A stretch of 21,772 nucleotides of DNA from a virus. This document shows positions 2,925 to 21,473 of this stretch, piece by piece. The notes under the pieces are model-generated. The model was not told the origin of the DNA, did not search any database, and saw nothing but the letters and a program-made list of their open reading frames with translations. The position numbers were made by a program, and so were the translations under genes. How positions within the stretch are numbered: the stretch's first letter is position 1; every line of letters starts with the position of its first letter. The DNA is taken from positions 1 through 21,772 of the IMG/VR virus record IMGVR_UViG_3300038701_000444, one strand, 5' to 3'.

Positions 2925-3132
2925 ATCATCCCGTCAAAAGATGATGGATGAAATCGAGAACTTGCATTTCAACACTGCACAAGATATGCAGAATCGAACC
3001 ATTGAATACAACGCAGCTCAATACGTTTATAAGTGTTTTAGCGATGAAGACGCAACAAACACAATCATTGAACTGATGAGCGCACACGGTTTACTTGAAG
3101 AAGAGGAAGACCAGAATGAAGCTACCCATTAA
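2842..3132 (+). CDS. Small hypothetical protein overlapping the portal 3' end
   Basis: This 96-residue, highly charged and probably all-helical protein has an acidic C-terminus (LLEEEEDQNE). I do not recognise a named family. The start at 2842 lies inside the portal gene but is preceded by AAGAGGG (2828-2834) seven bases upstream, a stronger site than anything before the internal ATG pair at 2941. This implies an 83-base overlap with the portal. Its 3' end overlaps the co-chaperonin gene by 17 bases, so all three are probably co-translated. Its position between portal and scaffold suggests a head-assembly role, which is inference only. Confidence 0.7.
   Translation: MRHKTEVKEWLNHPLTKLFQEALQKECESSRQKMMDEIENLHFNTAQDMQNRTIEYNAAQYVYKCFSDEDATNTIIELMSAHGLLEEEEDQNEATH
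3102..3110 (+). promoter_or_regulatory. Ribosome binding site setting the GroES-like start
   Basis: AGAGGAAGA lies 5 bases before ATG 3116. It argues for that start over the in-frame TTG at 3095, which has no comparable site. The same bases encode the acidic tail of the upstream gene. Confidence 0.7.
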
Positions 3133-3502
3133 GCCAGTTGGCTATCGAATGTTAGTTAAGCAAGTGATCCAAGAGAATAAGACCGAATCAGGTTTAATTC
3201 TAGCGACTGACGAAGAACACGAGCGCCAGCAGCGTGGATTCCCGATCTATGAAGTATTGGCCCAAGGTGACGCATGCTACAAAGCTAGAGACGGGCAAGA
3301 GTTCCCTGAGGGCAAGTGGTGCGAAGTCGGTGACATTATCTTGATGGATGGATACGCAGGCAAGAAGGTAAGCCCTGACGAGTTTATTTCACTTAACTCT
3401 GATGACGAAGAAATGAAGGCGGAGCTTAAAGATATGAAGCGCCTTAAATTAAACTTTCACTTAGTAAATGACGACTCAGTTATGGGAGTTCTAAAGAAAT
3501 GA
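3116..3502 (+). CDS. GroES-like co-chaperonin
   Basis: This 128-residue protein has a GroES/Cpn10 layout. The N-terminal strand IKPVGYRMLVKQ is followed by a mobile-loop segment (about residues 19-40) carrying the hydrophobic triad in GLIL (26-29), which in GroES docks onto GroEL. The conserved core VGDIILMDGYAGKK (71-84) follows, then a final strand HLVNDDSVMGVL. It is about 30 residues longer than bacterial GroES (about 97 aa), mainly from an acidic/basic helical insertion near residues 88-112. T4 gp31 is the classic phage GroES substitute, needed to fold its coat protein. Here the gene sits just before the scaffold and coat genes and overlaps the next start as ATGA, so a role in folding the coat or other virion proteins with host GroEL is likely. 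No GroEL gene is visible. Confidence 0.85.
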   Translation: MKLPIKPVGYRMLVKQVIQENKTESGLILATDEEHERQQRGFPIYEVLAQGDACYKARDGQEFPEGKWCEVGDIILMDGYAGKKVSPDEFISLNSDDEEMKAELKDMKRLKLNFHLVNDDSVMGVLKK

Positions 3503-16898: not shown

Positions 16899-18379
16899 TG
16901 GGCTTATTTGTAAATCCAATAACATTTCAGAATGACACAAAAGGCCGGACAATGCCTTATGCGTCATATGACTTTTACGAAACTGACACGTATAACCGAA
17001 AAGCCACGTATTCAGATATCGGTCTGACTTCTGTGAATCCTAATCCAGTAATAGCCGATGGTGCCGGTAAGTTTCCGCCAATCTATCTAGATGATAAAAA
17101 CTCATACCGGGTTGTGTTTAGCGAGTTCTCACGGCCTGATGTATATACGCAAGTCTGGGAGCGAGACGGCGTTACATCCGGCTTAGATGTGACTAGCGGG
17201 CTGACCTCTATCGACTCAGTAGCCGACCTATTCGGGCTTACGGGGGTGGATGGGCAGCAGATAAGTGTGGGCGAGTGTCAACCCAGTACAAGTGTTGGTG
17301 GTGGCAAGTTTGCGTGGGACCAAGGTGTTCATGATGGTGGCACGTTTATAGACCCTACGCGCACATTCCCTACGCCAGCAGAATGGGCTAACGGCTTGAC
17401 TGACCCCGCTGTGATTGCTTGGTTTGACACAAGCGGCGGCACTGTTAATGGGTGGGAGAGGCTCGGTGTCGAGTACGTTACTCCTGAAATGTTTGGATTG
17501 AATACGCTTGATGAGCTTCAGGCTCTCATTGAGACAACACTTCCTGATCTTAAATTTAAACCATTCTCACGGCTTGAGCTTCGTAACAGTAGAGAAAGTT
17601 CAGAAGGGCTGTTTGATGCGCCTAACTTCGCTGGACAAACTGATTATGGTAACGAGCCTATTGGTTTTATTTTTCATCATTACACAGATGGCGGCATGAT
17701 TCAGATAGATAATGTCGGTGAATCCAATGACATTATCCGATTAAAAAATGCACAAAACGCAAACAGAAGGCCGGATAAGCCTTCCTCATTTGTAGGTTCA
17801 GGTAATTTTCTAGCATTCGATGAGCATGACGACTCGCTGGGGTTTTCCCAAAGACTGGGTTTTATTGATAAGGCTTTTAAGATTGTATGGACTGGCGTTA
17901 AAGGGATTGCCACATTGTGGCAAAATAAAGCGGATGACGGCACGCCTGCATTCAGATTGCAGACGACAAACAATCACGACTACATCTTAAATATACTCAA
18001 CGGTCTGACCACGAATGTATTTAATTTCAGGAATGATGTTACGTATACGAGAGCACGTATAGACAGTCATCCAGATCAAACAAACGGAATGTACATAAAT
18101 GCTGGTGCGGGGAATCTGGTTCTTGATTCTACAAGCCAAGTTCGTGTAAATAAGCCGCTTTCGACAAGTTCGGGGAATTTACAGCTAACGACGGGCGATG
18201 CTTCTCCGGTTGAATCATTATTACCGTTGAAGTTAAGGCAATATTCAACTGCGGCACTACCCAGTGCCGCAACATATAGCGGTTGCGTTGTTAGTATAAG
18301 TGACAGAGCAGGAAAGCCTAGCCCAGTCGTCTATTCTGACGGGGCAGCATGGTATTATATGGATAATACCGCAGTTTAA
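16898..18379 (+). CDS. Tail fibre / tailspike protein 2, adaptor paralogue
   Basis: The N-terminal ~80 residues (KGRTMPYASYDFYET ... NPVIADGAGKFPPIYL ... SYRVVF) are clearly paralogous to those of the previous gene. A middle domain of unknown type follows, containing TSIDSVADLFGLTGVDGQQI, a segment often seen at the start of phage tailspike domains. The C-terminus (STAALPSAATYSGCVVSISD ... GAAWYYMD) is a small cap module found at the ends of many phage fibres. No pectate-lyase or deacetylase motif could be identified by eye. Arginine codons are CGN in the first 160 residues (6 of 6) and mostly AGA/AGG afterwards (10 of 15). It is the probable main receptor-binding protein. It starts inside the previous stop (TGATG). 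Confidence 0.8.
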   Translation: MGLFVNPITFQNDTKGRTMPYASYDFYETDTYNRKATYSDIGLTSVNPNPVIADGAGKFPPIYLDDKNSYRVVFSEFSRPDVYTQVWERDGVTSGLDVTSGLTSIDSVADLFGLTGVDGQQISVGECQPSTSVGGGKFAWDQGVHDGGTFIDPTRTFPTPAEWANGLTDPAVIAWFDTSGGTVNGWERLGVEYVTPEMFGLNTLDELQALIETTLPDLKFKPFSRLELRNSRESSEGLFDAPNFAGQTDYGNEPIGFIFHHYTDGGMIQIDNVGESNDIIRLKNAQNANRRPDKPSSFVGSGNFLAFDEHDDSLGFSQRLGFIDKAFKIVWTGVKGIATLWQNKADDGTPAFRLQTTNNHDYILNILNGLTTNVFNFRNDVTYTRARIDSHPDQTNGMYINAGAGNLVLDSTSQVRVNKPLSTSSGNLQLTTGDASPVESLLPLKLRQYSTAALPSAATYSGCVVSISDRAGKPSPVVYSDGAAWYYMDNTAV

Positions 18380-18385
18380 CCAACC

Positions 18386-18391
18386 GAGGAG
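18386..18391 (+). promoter_or_regulatory. Ribosome binding site of the 40-aa ORF
   Basis: GAGGAG lies 6 bases before ATG 18398. It is a strong site and the main evidence that the tiny ORF is translated. Confidence 0.55.
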
Positions 18392-18397
18392 AATCAC

Positions 18398-18520
18398 ATG
18401 CACTACCTAAACGTTTACATGACCGCGCAACCAGACCCGACTCCGCCGCCTGATGACGATAAGCCGGAAACGGCAGAGGAGCAGCACAATAACGGGACTG
18501 GTACCGGCCACCAAAAGTAA
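18398..18520 (+). CDS. Small ORF (40 aa), Pro/Asp-rich
   Basis: An ATG with a strong upstream site (GAGGAG) opens a 40-codon frame that ends in TAA overlapping the next start (TAATG). The product begins MHYLNVYMTAQPDPTPPPDD and is then acidic and hydrophilic. No family is recognised. It may couple translation of the membrane protein that follows, or be a small virion tail-associated peptide. Confidence 0.5.
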   Translation: MHYLNVYMTAQPDPTPPPDDDKPETAEEQHNNGTGTGHQK

Positions 18521-19068
18521 TGGAATTTTTGTATGGACGCGAAAGCGGTCTAATTGTTGACTGCATATTTATTCTTCTGTTCCTTGTGTCTTACACAAGG
18601 CTAAGGAACAGCGCGTCCATATATTCTTTATTTTTTGGCATTGCAATTCCTGTTTTCGCTTATAGTTATCTATATGCAGTGGAATACATGCATAAATTCA
18701 ACGTTGATTATCATTTAGTGATGGCTGGCCTAGTGTCGGCTTTTTTCGTTTGCATTCTTGTTTGCTCGAAAGGTTATGGGCTGCTTTTGTGTGCGATAGG
18801 TCTAAATGTTTTACTGCATGCAGTGATGATTATTAAAGAACCTGCGCAGCAAATGCACTTAATTAGCCCAAAAGGTTACACTGTAATATATGACAGTTAC
18901 GAGAATGCGAGAATCTTAGTAGTTTCTCTCCAATTATTGGGGTTAACACTTGGCGGCAAATATGGGAGATATAGCGATATTAATAGTCGGTTTCGCTCTG
19001 ATATTCGTCGCGCTTTTAATGATTTTCGCGTTCATTCCATCCGCTTACTACGAGCTAAAAGGTCATGA
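18520..19068 (+). CDS. Multi-pass membrane protein of unknown function
   Basis: This 182-residue protein has about five hydrophobic segments (residues about 10-26, 33-54, 66-83, 85-105 and 130-147), then a strongly basic C-terminal tail (RFRSDIRRAFNDFRV and after). The size and position just before lysis genes allow a holin, but the number of segments is higher than usual. A superinfection-exclusion or other membrane moron function is also possible. It has AT-rich, AGG-bearing codons before position 18962. The basic tail coincides exactly with the region that also encodes a membrane segment in another frame. It ends in an ATGA overlap with the coiled-coil gene. Confidence 0.6.
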   Translation: MEFLYGRESGLIVDCIFILLFLVSYTRLRNSASIYSLFFGIAIPVFAYSYLYAVEYMHKFNVDYHLVMAGLVSAFFVCILVCSKGYGLLLCAIGLNVLLHAVMIIKEPAQQMHLISPKGYTVIYDSYENARILVVSLQLLGLTLGGKYGRYSDINSRFRSDIRRAFNDFRVHSIRLLRAKRS

Positions 19069-19270
19069 CGCAGAAAAAAAACGAGCCGAGCGTCAACTGG
19101 CAAGTAATCCACCAAAGCCAAAAAGAACAGGCGGCAAGATCGGAGCGCATCGAGAAGAACCAAGATCGCGCAGACGAGAAGATCGACAAGCTGGTGTCTG
19201 CCATGTCAGAGTTGACAAGTACACTTACAGGGTATTCGCGAGAACTTCGACATACAAGCAAAGACCTTGA
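18962..19270 (+). CDS. Candidate overprinted one-TM membrane ORF
   Basis: An ATG at 18962 opens a 102-codon frame lying wholly within the end of the membrane protein gene and the start of the coiled-coil gene, each in a different frame, so it has no private bases. Residues about 4-27 form a convincing membrane helix (AILIVGFALIFVALLMIFAF), followed by YYELKGHDAEKKRAERQ, a normal-looking membrane-proximal helix. After residue about 50 the product becomes very basic and looks less natural. The ribosome site is weak (GGCGG, 18953-18957). Lysis regions often have nested genes such as Rz/Rz1. It may be a real small holin or spanin-like protein, or only the N-terminal part may be used. Confidence 0.4.
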   Translation: MGDIAILIVGFALIFVALLMIFAFIPSAYYELKGHDAEKKRAERQLASNPPKPKRTGGKIGAHREEPRSRRREDRQAGVCHVRVDKYTYRVFARTSTYKQRP

Positions 19271-19430
19271 GGAAACTAATGAGCATGTTAAAAGCTTGAC
19301 TTCTCGCGTTACAGTTCTTGAAATACAAGGAGCGTCACGAGAAACAAGGCTAAAGATAATTATTGGAGCGATGGCTGCTGCAATGTCTTTTGCCTCGGCT
19401 TGGGTTCTTGCTGTTTTTACGGGGAAATAA
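19065..19430 (+). CDS. Coiled-coil protein with C-terminal membrane anchor
   Basis: The 121-residue product has a long charged coiled coil (residues about 15-90) and one C-terminal membrane helix (about 97-118, KIIIGAMAAAMSFASAWVLA). This layout resembles XhlA-type and related phage lysis-associated membrane proteins. The start overlaps the previous stop as ATGA; the AAAAGG sequence (19057-19062) is only 2 bases from the ATG, so coupling or reinitiation probably drives translation. An A8 tract (19074-19081) lies at codons 4-6. Confidence 0.62.
   Translation: MTQKKNEPSVNWQVIHQSQKEQAARSERIEKNQDRADEKIDKLVSAMSELTSTLTGYSRELRHTSKDLEETNEHVKSLTSRVTVLEIQGASRETRLKIIIGAMAAAMSFASAWVLAVFTGK
19074..19081 (+). 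other. A8 homopolymer tract near the start of the coiled-coil gene
   Basis: Eight adenines are read as AAA AAA AAC in the coiled-coil gene and GAA AAA AAA in the overprinted frame. A gain or loss of bases in the transcript, or a ribosomal shift here, could join the overprinted membrane helix to the coiled coil. See findings. Confidence 0.5.
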
Positions 19431-19432
19431 TT

Positions 19433-19876
19433 ATGGAAATTACAGTAAATCGATTCAAATCAAACAATGACGCGACGTTATCTGCAGTAAGCATTGATGG
19501 TGAGTTTCAATGCTTCGGGCTAGAGGATGAATATCGAGAAGATAAAATAGCCGGCGAAACTCGAATACCAGCAGGTCGTTATCGAGTCGGCATTCGTGAC
19601 GTTGGTGGATTTCATGGCCGGTACGGCCGGAAGTTCAATTTTCACGTCGGTATGCTGCAGGTATTAGATGTACCTAATTTTGAATACATCTTGATTCACA
19701 TCGGTAACACTGACAAAGATACTGCAGGGTGTTTGCTAATTGGTGAGAATTGCACTGCAGGAGATTCGCTTACGGTTCTGTCTAGCACTGCAGCGTATAA
19801 GAAATTCTACGTTAAGGTTATCGAGTCTGCAGTAAATGGTGATCTATTTATCAACTACGTGGATTCTGATCGATGA
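19433..19876 (+). CDS. DUF5675-like protein, candidate cell-wall enzyme
   Basis: This 147-residue protein carries the features I associate with the DUF5675 family: GETRIPAGRY (41-50), HVGMLQVLDVP (71-81) and ILIHIGNTDKDTAGCLLIG (86-104). The latter includes His89, Gly91-Asn92 and Gly99-Cys100. The spaced His ... Gly-Cys arrangement recalls the active site of L,D-transpeptidase-type enzymes, but that link is my inference. It lies between coiled-coil/TM and holin-like genes, where an endolysin would be expected, and no other muralytic gene is visible in the window. ATG 19433 is favoured over TTG 19400 because GGGG (19421-19424) precedes it at good spacing. Its stop overlaps a tiny 23-aa ORF (ATGA). 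Confidence 0.7.
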   Translation: MEITVNRFKSNNDATLSAVSIDGEFQCFGLEDEYREDKIAGETRIPAGRYRVGIRDVGGFHGRYGRKFNFHVGMLQVLDVPNFEYILIHIGNTDKDTAGCLLIGENCTAGDSLTVLSSTAAYKKFYVKVIESAVNGDLFINYVDSDR

Positions 19877-19944
19877 CGCACACGCATCCAGTTAACCAGG
19901 TAAAACCAACTTGGTTAAATATCAAGAGGCCGAAGAATGGATAA
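19873..19944 (+). CDS. Possible 23-aa leader ORF before the holin-like gene
   Basis: An ATG overlapping the previous stop (ATGA) opens a 23-codon frame ending 8 bases inside the next gene. The product begins MTHTHPVNQVKPTWLNIKR. It contains a hairpin (19892-19918) and covers the next ribosome site (19924-19929). It could couple translation of the holin-like gene to upstream flow. It may also be chance. Confidence 0.25.
   Translation: MTHTHPVNQVKPTWLNIKRPKNG
19892..19918 (+). promoter_or_regulatory. RNA hairpin just upstream of the holin-like gene's ribosome site
   Basis: TTAACCAGGT (19892-19901) pairs with ACTTGGTTAA (19909-19918) over ten positions with one G-U wobble and a seven-base loop. 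The holin ribosome site AAGAGG begins 6 bases later. There is no T tract, so a translation-control role fits better than a terminator. Confidence 0.5.
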
Positions 19945-20179
19945 GTTTAATTCAATGTTCGAACCGCTTTGGGTGTTCCTTCACCGCGGGCACATAGTCC
20001 GCCGATTCGTTCTTTTTGCTGCAGTGTGGATGACGTTTGATTCATATAACTGGGCAAAAGCCTATGCTATGACTGCAGACCCTAACGAATTTATTTATGC
20101 TGCAGTTCTCGGTGTTCCTTCTGCGTTATTAGCTGCAGCAATCAAGTTTTATAGCACTGGTAGAAATGAGGGCAAATAG
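19937..20179 (+). CDS. Holin-like protein, two membrane segments
   Basis: The 80-residue product has two membrane segments (about 22-42 and 52-72) joined by a short polar loop (MTADPNEF), with a positively charged segment before the first (HIVRR) and a charged tail (TGRNEGK). This is the size and layout of a class II holin, which opens the inner membrane at the programmed time of lysis. AAGAGG lies 7 bases before the start. The next gene is also holin-like, so the pair may act together or as holin and antiholin. Confidence 0.65.
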   Translation: MDKFNSMFEPLWVFLHRGHIVRRFVLFAAVWMTFDSYNWAKAYAMTADPNEFIYAAVLGVPSALLAAAIKFYSTGRNEGK

Positions 20180-20614
20180 ATGTTTGAAACACTCGCAACA
20201 GTTCTCGCTAGTTCCGGCGCTGGCTCAATTATTGGTGGCATCTTTGGCTTACTTGGTCGTAAAGAAGAAAGGAAAGCTCGAGAGGCTGATTATAAATTTA
20301 AGCTCGAGTCTATGCGTTTGGGCGGTGATATTGCGATTGAAACTACGGACGCTCAAGCATTCCTCGAGTCACAGAAAACAATAAGCAAATTCGGCGGTGC
20401 TGTTAAAAGCGCTGTACGGCCTATTATAACGGGTTTCTTGCTTTGGCAATGCTATGTGATATTGACAAGCCTAGAATCAATCACAGGTGGTTTAGAATCC
20501 CTCCCTGCTGACATTACGCTCGAGTTGTACCGCGACATCGTTCTAAACATAATCTCACTAACTGCTACGGCGGTGAATTGGTGGTTTGCTGCTCGAGGTA
20601 CATCAAAGAAATAG
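20180..20614 (+). CDS. Three-TM holin-like protein (GTA-type holin family candidate)
   Basis: This 144-residue protein has a Gly/Ala-rich first hydrophobic segment (about 7-25), a charged helical stretch (RKEERKAREADYKFK, about 27-41), a second segment starting AVRPIITGFLL (about 78-98) and a third near 119-137 ending NWWFAARG. The order of charged helix, Arg-Pro at the membrane edge, and final W-W-F-x-x-R matches what I recall of the 3TM holins linked to gene-transfer-agent release. It follows the preceding gene with no gap (stop ends at 20179, ATG at 20180). Five CTCGAG palindromes occur inside it. This is the last + strand gene of the late operon. Confidence 0.6.
   Translation: MFETLATVLASSGAGSIIGGIFGLLGRKEERKAREADYKFKLESMRLGGDIAIETTDAQAFLESQKTISKFGGAVKSAVRPIITGFLLWQCYVILTSLESITGGLESLPADITLELYRDIVLNIISLTATAVNWWFAARGTSKK
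20277..20597 (+). repeat. Cluster of five CTCGAG palindromes
   Basis: CTCGAG begins at 20277, 20303, 20363, 20519 and 20592, all inside one gene, and I found none elsewhere in the window. Three are in frame as CTC GAG and two fall as GCT CGA G, so no single codon pair explains them. Confidence 0.7.
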
Positions 20615-21164: not shown

Positions 21165-21473
21165 TTACAAGTCTTGCTCTTTGACGAAGAATCCATCTAC
21201 CATCTTTCCCTTTCTATCCTTGATTTTTAGCCACGCTGATAAAAACGCATCGTTCAATGTAAAGCCTTTCTGTACGCATAAGTTGTTAAGGCATACCAAC
21301 GCATCACCTATTTCTAATTTAAGCTCGTGCGGCTTGTCCTTGGCTAGGCATTCGGCAATTTCACCTATCTCTTCCACAAGCTTGATGAATTGCTTGTCTG
21401 ATGTAGTACCTTCGATCAGATTACGGTCATGCGCCCATTGTGTCGTACTGTCTTGCAAGTCGTTTAAGTTCAT
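21165..21473 (-). CDS. MazG-like nucleotide pyrophosphohydrolase
   Basis: The 102-residue all-helical protein has the paired metal-binding motifs of the MazG superfamily: EEIGE (34-38) and EIGDALVCLNNL (54-65, with Glu54 and Asp57). Such enzymes hydrolyse NTPs or dNTPs to monophosphate and pyrophosphate. Phage MazG proteins are thought to adjust nucleotide pools or ppGpp-type signals during infection, though the substrate cannot be read from sequence. Its start overlaps the stop of the 64-aa gene upstream (ATGA on the - strand). Confidence 0.85.
   Translation of the reverse strand: MNLNDLQDSTTQWAHDRNLIEGTTSDKQFIKLVEEIGEIAECLAKDKPHELKLEIGDALVCLNNLCVQKGFTLNDAFLSAWLKIKDRKGKMVDGFFVKEQDL

Follow-up and report, generated by a model that had tools for sequence, protein, structure and literature searches.

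The question raised by this locus is whether an open reading frame (ORF) laid across two other genes encodes a protein of its own, and what such a protein would do. The locus lies in a viral sequence of 21,772 bases, IMG/VR record IMGVR_UViG_3300038701_000444, positions 1 to 21,772, which is referred to in its full length as the window. The source virus is a tailed phage. After the tail-fibre gene, the window carries a peptide ORF, a multi-pass membrane gene, the overprinted ORF, a coiled-coil gene and a DUF5675 gene, in this order. Two relatives were found, L002 by a protein search of IMG/VR and L003 by a search with a two-row alignment. The features of the locus are:

18398-18520, + strand: small conserved peptide ORF with an MTxQPDPTP motif, first in the conserved block
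18520-19068, + strand: upstream multi-pass membrane gene, 182 aa, with an Arg/Lys-rich C-terminal segment; identity 54% (L002) and 43% (L003)
18939-18943, + strand: candidate Shine-Dalgarno sequence GGGGT for TTG 18950; the same pentamer stands before the aligned starts of L002 and L003
18950-19270, + strand: overprinted membrane ORF in its likelier full extent; 106 aa from TTG 18950, 102 aa from ATG 18962
18971-19027, + strand: predicted membrane helix of the ORF (residues 4-22 from ATG 18962), based on Kyte-Doolittle hydrophobicity, a structure model and codon resampling
19031-19063, + strand: juxtamembrane segment FIPSAYYELKG (residues 24-34), which does not vary among the three sequences
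19064-19267, + strand: basic, poorly conserved tail of the ORF, over the coiled-coil gene
19065-19068, + strand: ATGA junction, coding in three frames; present in the window, L002 and L003
19065-19430, + strand: downstream coiled-coil gene (121 aa), whose product has a membrane helix at its C-terminus and is weakly XhlA-like
19433-19876, + strand: DUF5675 gene (PF18925, E 7.3e-29)
19937-20179 and 20180-20614, + strand: two more putative membrane genes, possibly of holin type, with one hydrophobic stretch above threshold each

The ORF at 18962-19270 on the + strand is open, and its frame opens at 18947 after a TAA at 18944-18946. The upstream gene and the coiled-coil gene occupy the two other frames, and positions 19065-19068 are read in all three. 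The initial annotation had described this ORF as having no private bases, and every base is indeed shared with the multi-pass or the coiled-coil gene, also when the ORF is counted from 18950. Its length is not very remarkable, given other out-of-frame ORFs of up to 85 aa on the same strand of the window and of up to 148 aa on the opposite strand. The ORF stands above chance because it is conserved in two relatives, not because of its length.

Both relatives share the order of small peptide, multi-pass gene, ORF, coiled-coil gene joined by the ATGA junction, and M15 peptidase gene. Stops in relatives had been named beforehand as grounds for rejecting the frame; none were found, and the frame is open over its full length in both. 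Over the full length, the identity to the ORF of the window is 43% for L002 and 50% for L003. Within codons 1-34, 28/34 positions are identical between the window and L002, 24/34 between the window and L003, and 27/34 in the remaining pair, and FAFIPSAYYELKG is invariant in all three sequences. All constraint tests are based on only these three sequences, and L004, L005, L006, L008, L009, L017 and L018 are the same two contigs as L002 and L003.

Further scans of viral contigs with a protein, a two-row alignment, a three-row alignment and a DNA pattern returned the same two contigs only, and scans of genome contigs returned no relative. With tblastn, neither the ORF of the window nor the first 45 residues of the L002 ORF matched the phage collection, and a search of plasmids gave only two matches at chance level (E 3 and 5). 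With 17500-20500 as a blastn query against phages, only the tail fibre matched, in two Vibrio phage VBM1 records. When nine records were searched with a profile, hits were confined to the two source contigs; the seven other phage records gave none. No counterpart was recognised in the annotation tables of phages with an L002-like downstream membrane gene or a similar portal. The scans were insensitive, as the upstream protein or the coiled-coil protein of the window alone found none, despite the homologues in L002 and L003. Therefore, further relatives may exist unseen. As a separate observation, a GroES-like co-chaperonin gene (3119-3502; PF00166, E 1.7e-7) lies shortly after the portal gene of the window, and in two phages with similar portals a co-chaperonin is also annotated near the portal.

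The conserved open frame could be a by-product if no protein were made and the DNA were conserved for another reason, such as the C-terminus of the upstream protein or regulatory DNA or RNA. In the overlap with the multi-pass gene, third positions of the upstream codons differ in 2/35, 4/35 and 4/35 codons in the three pairs (6-11%), compared to 77/145, 99/147 and 94/145 codons outside the overlap (53-67%; Fisher p 8e-8, 1e-9 and 7e-9). Sorted by new-frame positions 1, 2 and 3, the substitutions number 6, 2, 10; 6, 4, 11; and 6, 4, 12. This is a coding pattern, which is reversed for the upstream frame. That the substitutions follow the codons of the new frame and not those of the upstream frame argues against a by-product. 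When the upstream protein was kept fixed and its codons were resampled with phage codon usage, the observed similarity of the new frame was reached in 0 of 20000 resamplings for all six ordered pairs, and none of 5000 resamplings per sequence attained its observed hydrophobicity in any of the three, which also speaks for an encoded protein.

Differences that are silent in the new frame were compared to their expected numbers as a further test. Window and L002 differ silently at 11/17 in both directions (expected 4.2 and 4.1), and L002 and L003 at 12/21 and 13/21 (expected 5.1 and 5.2). For window and L003, the values of 7/21 against 5.2 expected (p 0.25) and 9/21 in the reverse direction (p 0.053) are not significant. 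Over the first ~34 codons, the excess is thus found at p 0.053 or lower in five of the six ordered comparisons. Silent differences of the upstream frame amount to 3-5 of 17-21 against 4.5-5.8 expected, and this test indicates no residue constraint on that frame. Judged from the aligned sequences, the first ~34 codons of the new frame are under purifying selection, as is expected of a functional overlapping gene, and by the same comparisons the new frame is the better constrained one over this stretch.

There are cautions to these results. At the 3' end of the upstream gene, the DNA as such is conserved. Over the last two windows of 30 residues in this gene, frame +2 as a control shows 15-19 identities and 5-8 stops, whereas the new frame shows 16-24 identities and no stops. 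The control frame is higher in one of the six comparisons (window and L003, first of the two windows, 18 vs 16). Identity by itself therefore does not decide the matter; the stops and the codon positions do. A low third-position divergence (0.32, compared to 0.63-0.75 further upstream) is found as early as 18889-18948, where the new frame has a stop. This stretch contains GGGGT and may include initiation signals. That the end of the gene is conserved in general, in frame +2 and at 18889-18948 as well, is what would be expected if only the DNA were conserved. However, the alignment fold of 18885-18985 contains no compensatory pair, and RNA structure at the start is weak. Together with the codon pattern and the resamplings, this leaves an open frame without a protein as a very improbable explanation, and it is very probable that the ORF is a genuine gene.

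The reverse test was applied to the upstream gene. With the new protein kept fixed and the codons resampled, the observed similarity of the upstream frame was reached in 0 of 20000 resamplings for the six ordered pairs. By this measure the upstream frame does not appear to be free in the overlap either, and shared descent confounds the comparison. The overlap is not saturated, so that shared descent contributes to the resampling results. The arginine-rich tail of the upstream protein had been explained as a consequence of the membrane helix in the new frame. This explanation did not hold: the Arg and Lys residues expected from resampling are 4.4, 4.1 and 3.8 for the window, L002 and L003, whereas 10, 9 and 10 are observed, and the observed numbers were reached in fractions of only 0.002, 0.002 and 0.000 of the resamplings. 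A basic upstream tail simply as a by-product of the helix is therefore rejected.

The start of the gene was revised as well. ATG 18962, which had been taken as the start to be kept in relatives, is ATG in L002 and ATA in L003. The aligned start codons are instead TTG 18950 in the window, ATG 4989 in L002 and ATG 4986 in L003, at a distance of 6, 6 and 9 bases from GGGGT. The energies of the anti-Shine-Dalgarno duplex at these starts (-5.4, -5.4 and -6.0) are not exceptional, given a 10% quantile of -5.8 at random positions. For ATG 18962, the energy is -4.8 in the window and -1.5 at its counterpart in L002. Because the starts align behind a shared GGGGT and their duplex energies compare better, the sequences modestly favour TTG 18950 over ATG 18962. 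L003 also has AGGAG before GTG 5010/ATG 5013 (duplex -7.3), which may indicate an inner start in this sequence.

Instead of a separate start, +1 ribosomal frameshifting from the multi-pass gene could provide an alternative C-terminus to the upstream protein, consisting of an extra helix and a basic tail. The two frames are jointly open over 18947-19065, the reduction in third-position divergence begins just before, at 18889-18948, and the overlap of L003 contains the codons AGG AGA in succession, all of which would suit such a mechanism. However, inspection of the aligned codons by eye revealed no slippery sequence common to the three. In all three sequences, a new-frame stop lies one codon before the aligned start, so that the conserved opening coincides with the start. 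This stop and the aligned starts behind GGGGT fit separate initiation, and frameshifting is considered improbable.

The part of the ORF that lies over the coiled-coil gene behaves differently from the first ~34 codons. It is open for 68, 69 and 70 codons in the window, L002 and L003, and stays open in 0-3 of 4000 cases when the codons of the coiled-coil gene are resampled. When these codons are permuted within the gene, the tail is open in 50, 117 and 1119 of 20000 cases (0.25%, 0.6% and 5.6%). With 5.6% under permutation, the open tail of L003 is weak evidence if taken alone. The observed similarity of the tails was reached in 3 and 11 of 4000 resamplings for window and L002, in 0 and 70 for window and L003, and in 332 and 226 for L002 and L003. 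None of the six comparisons shows an excess of new-frame silent changes in the tail. Its net charge of +12, +8 and +12 is not clearly above that of resampled codons (fractions 0.050, 0.757 and 0.075). The constraint that had been predicted for the third frame was thus confirmed for the first ~34 codons, but not over the coiled-coil gene, where the silent-change test gave no sign of residue constraint. We read the tail as tolerated, positively charged and probably little constrained.

The strong membrane helix that had been noted for the ORF was recovered, with a best 19-residue Kyte-Doolittle mean of 3.23 at residues 4-22. A structure model of the ORF from the three-row alignment contains a helix at residues 2-47, with a mean pLDDT of 87 for residues 1-10 and 91 for residues 11-20. 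The mean pLDDT values of 58.0 for the ORF model and 50.7 for the model of the upstream protein, both from three-row alignments, are too poor for a fold search. Based on its charge flanks, the product would be a single-pass protein with its C-terminus inside. Neither an i-spanin nor a class III holin of the T4 type would agree with this predicted N-out/C-in topology.

An i-spanin, the inner-membrane half of a two-component spanin, was considered since the ORF combines an N-terminal membrane helix, as judged by hydrophobicity only, with a charged helix in a lysis region. An overlapping layout is moreover described as common among spanins (PMC6139136). On the other hand, a regular-expression scan of 1.9-2.4 kb per sequence found no conserved + strand ORF with a lipobox in the module. 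The scan gave single matches in one sequence each, and a match inside the ORF itself occurred in L003 only. In addition, the charge flanks suggest C-in, whereas i-spanins are C-out, and the residues of the tail are not conserved. An i-spanin is thus improbable. In tailed phages that infect Gram-negative hosts, the Rz/Rz1-type spanins are described as membrane-associated lysis genes that overlap (PMC6139136). Unlike the ORF, they overlap each other and not two other genes, they have a lipobox partner of which none is conserved in the module of the ORF, and their topology is likely the opposite one.

The surroundings of the ORF are probably a lysis region. The conserved block is followed by a slot that holds three different genes: DUF5675 at 19433-19876 in the window, M15_4 at 5499-5885 in L002 (PF13539) and M15_3 at 5503-5877 in L003 (PF08291). 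These differing enzyme genes after a conserved block suggest a modular exchange of the lysis enzyme. By its position, the DUF5675 gene would be the endolysin gene, as L002 and L003 have their M15 peptidase genes there. Of the two putative membrane genes that follow, 19937-20179 matched no Pfam or PHROGs family and 20180-20614 matched phrog_6637 (function unknown) alone. The coiled-coil protein matched PF10779 at E 3.8e-4 and 21.0 bits, which is below the cut-off of 34.7, and two other families score equally well or better.

At the other end of the block, copies of the peptide ORF with 35-40 residues precede the multi-pass gene in all three sequences (18398-18520; 4448-4561 in L002; 4446-4553 in L003). 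The L003 copy had no tblastn match among phages. In PHROGs, the window copy had no match at E 0.1 and the L002 copy matched only phrog_36939, at 0.05. A DNA pattern of the peptide matched only the L002 and L003 contigs in the viral contig collection. Two observations concern the remaining sequence downstream. The 26 copies of CTGCAG in the window exceed the 6.3 expected, and none of 100 shuffles reached as many; 10 of the 26 lie within 657 bases at 19482-20138, and none occur in the 10,309 bases of L002. A gene for a MazG-type pyrophosphohydrolase lies at 21165-21473 on the - strand (PF03819, E 3.3e-9).

The block between tail fibre and lysis enzyme could also serve outside lysis, with the ORF encoding a superinfection-exclusion or other envelope protein. 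This would agree with a block of peptide, multi-pass gene, ORF and coiled-coil gene that stays constant while the next enzyme gene changes. However, the enzyme gene immediately follows the block in each of the three sequences, further putative membrane genes come next, and no Pfam or PHROGs family names such a role. Such a function is unlikely. For a lysis protein the setting would be fitting, with an M15 peptidase gene next in line in both relatives.

Family searches did not name a function. The ORF had no match in Pfam or PHROGs at E 0.001, including no Pfam holin match, and no PDB match better than E 0.73. All candidates remained above the threshold of E 0.001 and were rejected: LapA (E 0.16 for the window, 0.036 for L002), OAD_gamma (E 0.19), phrog_13757 (unknown; 0.053), the endolysin phrog_8251 for the L003 ORF (0.078) and the holin phrog_20 for the L002 ORF only (E 0.018), which is the best holin hint.

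Another possibility is a single-gene lysis protein (amurin) or a holin-like toxin, whose helix alone would disturb the envelope or a cell-wall enzyme. The anatomy of the ORF resembles that of phiX174 E (NC_001422), which is likewise overprinted, with an out-of-frame membrane helix that ends in FIPS and a basic tail, and a 23-column local alignment to E was obtained for all three sequences. The similarity is only weakly above shuffles: the scores of 32, 36 and 32 were reached by 177, 35 and 89 of 5000 shuffles, and sequence homology to E was not established by this test. The relatives moreover own M15 peptidase genes for lysis, so that an amurin would not be needed, and the PDB search gave no better support. 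An amurin or holin-like toxin is therefore regarded as quite unlikely. A further idea, an amurin-like or holin-modulating peptide overprinted across two genes of an enzyme-bearing cassette as a convergent counterpart of phiX174 E, is speculative and given little weight.

The explanation preferred here is a separately translated overprinted gene at a two-gene junction in the probable lysis region of a tailed phage, with an accessory role; taken as a whole, its chances are put at about even. Overprinting at the junction of the multi-pass and coiled-coil genes would have created the new gene, and ribosomes would initiate inside the upstream gene at TTG 18950 behind GGGGT. Following the positive-inside rule, the product would be a single-pass inner-membrane protein with an acidic N-terminus outside and a basic tail in the cytoplasm. 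Function would rest with the conserved helix and FIPSAYYELKG, and the tail would mainly add positive charge. The product would act in the inner membrane beside the multi-pass protein and the protein with the coiled coil and transmembrane helix. Its specific role as an accessory or timing component of lysis is proposed tentatively, at somewhat less than even chances.

Regarding origin, codon usage that is less like the genome is described as a criterion for the younger frame of an overprinted pair (PMC8227390). In the first overlap, the agreement with phage codon usage is -0.071, -0.073 and -0.137 for the new frame and 0.066, 0.053 and 0.145 for the upstream frame, which makes the new frame lower in all three sequences, each with few codons. 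In the second overlap, again with few codons, the new frame is closer to the phage codon usage than the coiled-coil frame in all three. These values give only a hint that the new frame may be the younger, overprinted frame in the first overlap.

The layout itself has precedents in small phages. The ssDNA microvirus phiX174 has no endolysin enzyme; its K bridges into gene C in a third frame and has an accessory role. MS2 L spans the end of the coat gene and the start of the replicase gene, with some private bases between the two. Gene E of phiX174 is described as nested in gene D, and gene K as starting within the 3' end of gene A (PMC8227390). Thus, E differs from the ORF in lying within one host gene. 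K resembles the ORF by starting in the 3' end of one gene and bridging onward, and differs in being a microvirus gene. Single-gene lysis genes of leviviruses are reported to be small and overprinted on other genes (PMC7693330), and MS2-L is described as a soluble N-terminal domain followed by a transmembrane domain (PMC10688784). Unlike the ORF, MS2 L is an RNA phage gene with a C-terminal helix. In a survey, 3,474 of 20,499 overlapping viral genes were reported to overlap two others (PMC7017920). The three-frame bridging layout, which had been called unusual, is accordingly uncommon, but the precedents of phiX174 E and K and MS2 L qualify this description. From a non-exhaustive literature search, what seems less usual is the combination of a tailed dsDNA phage gene without a private base that bridges two genes, and of a hidden frame that is the better constrained one.

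Gene-calling programs are reported to be biased against overlapped genes, as described for o-spanins (PMC6139136), and such proteins can therefore be missed. Here, a three-way alignment shows the hidden frame of a tailed phage as the better constrained one. The lysis regions of metagenomic phages are thus worth searching for overprinted membrane genes.
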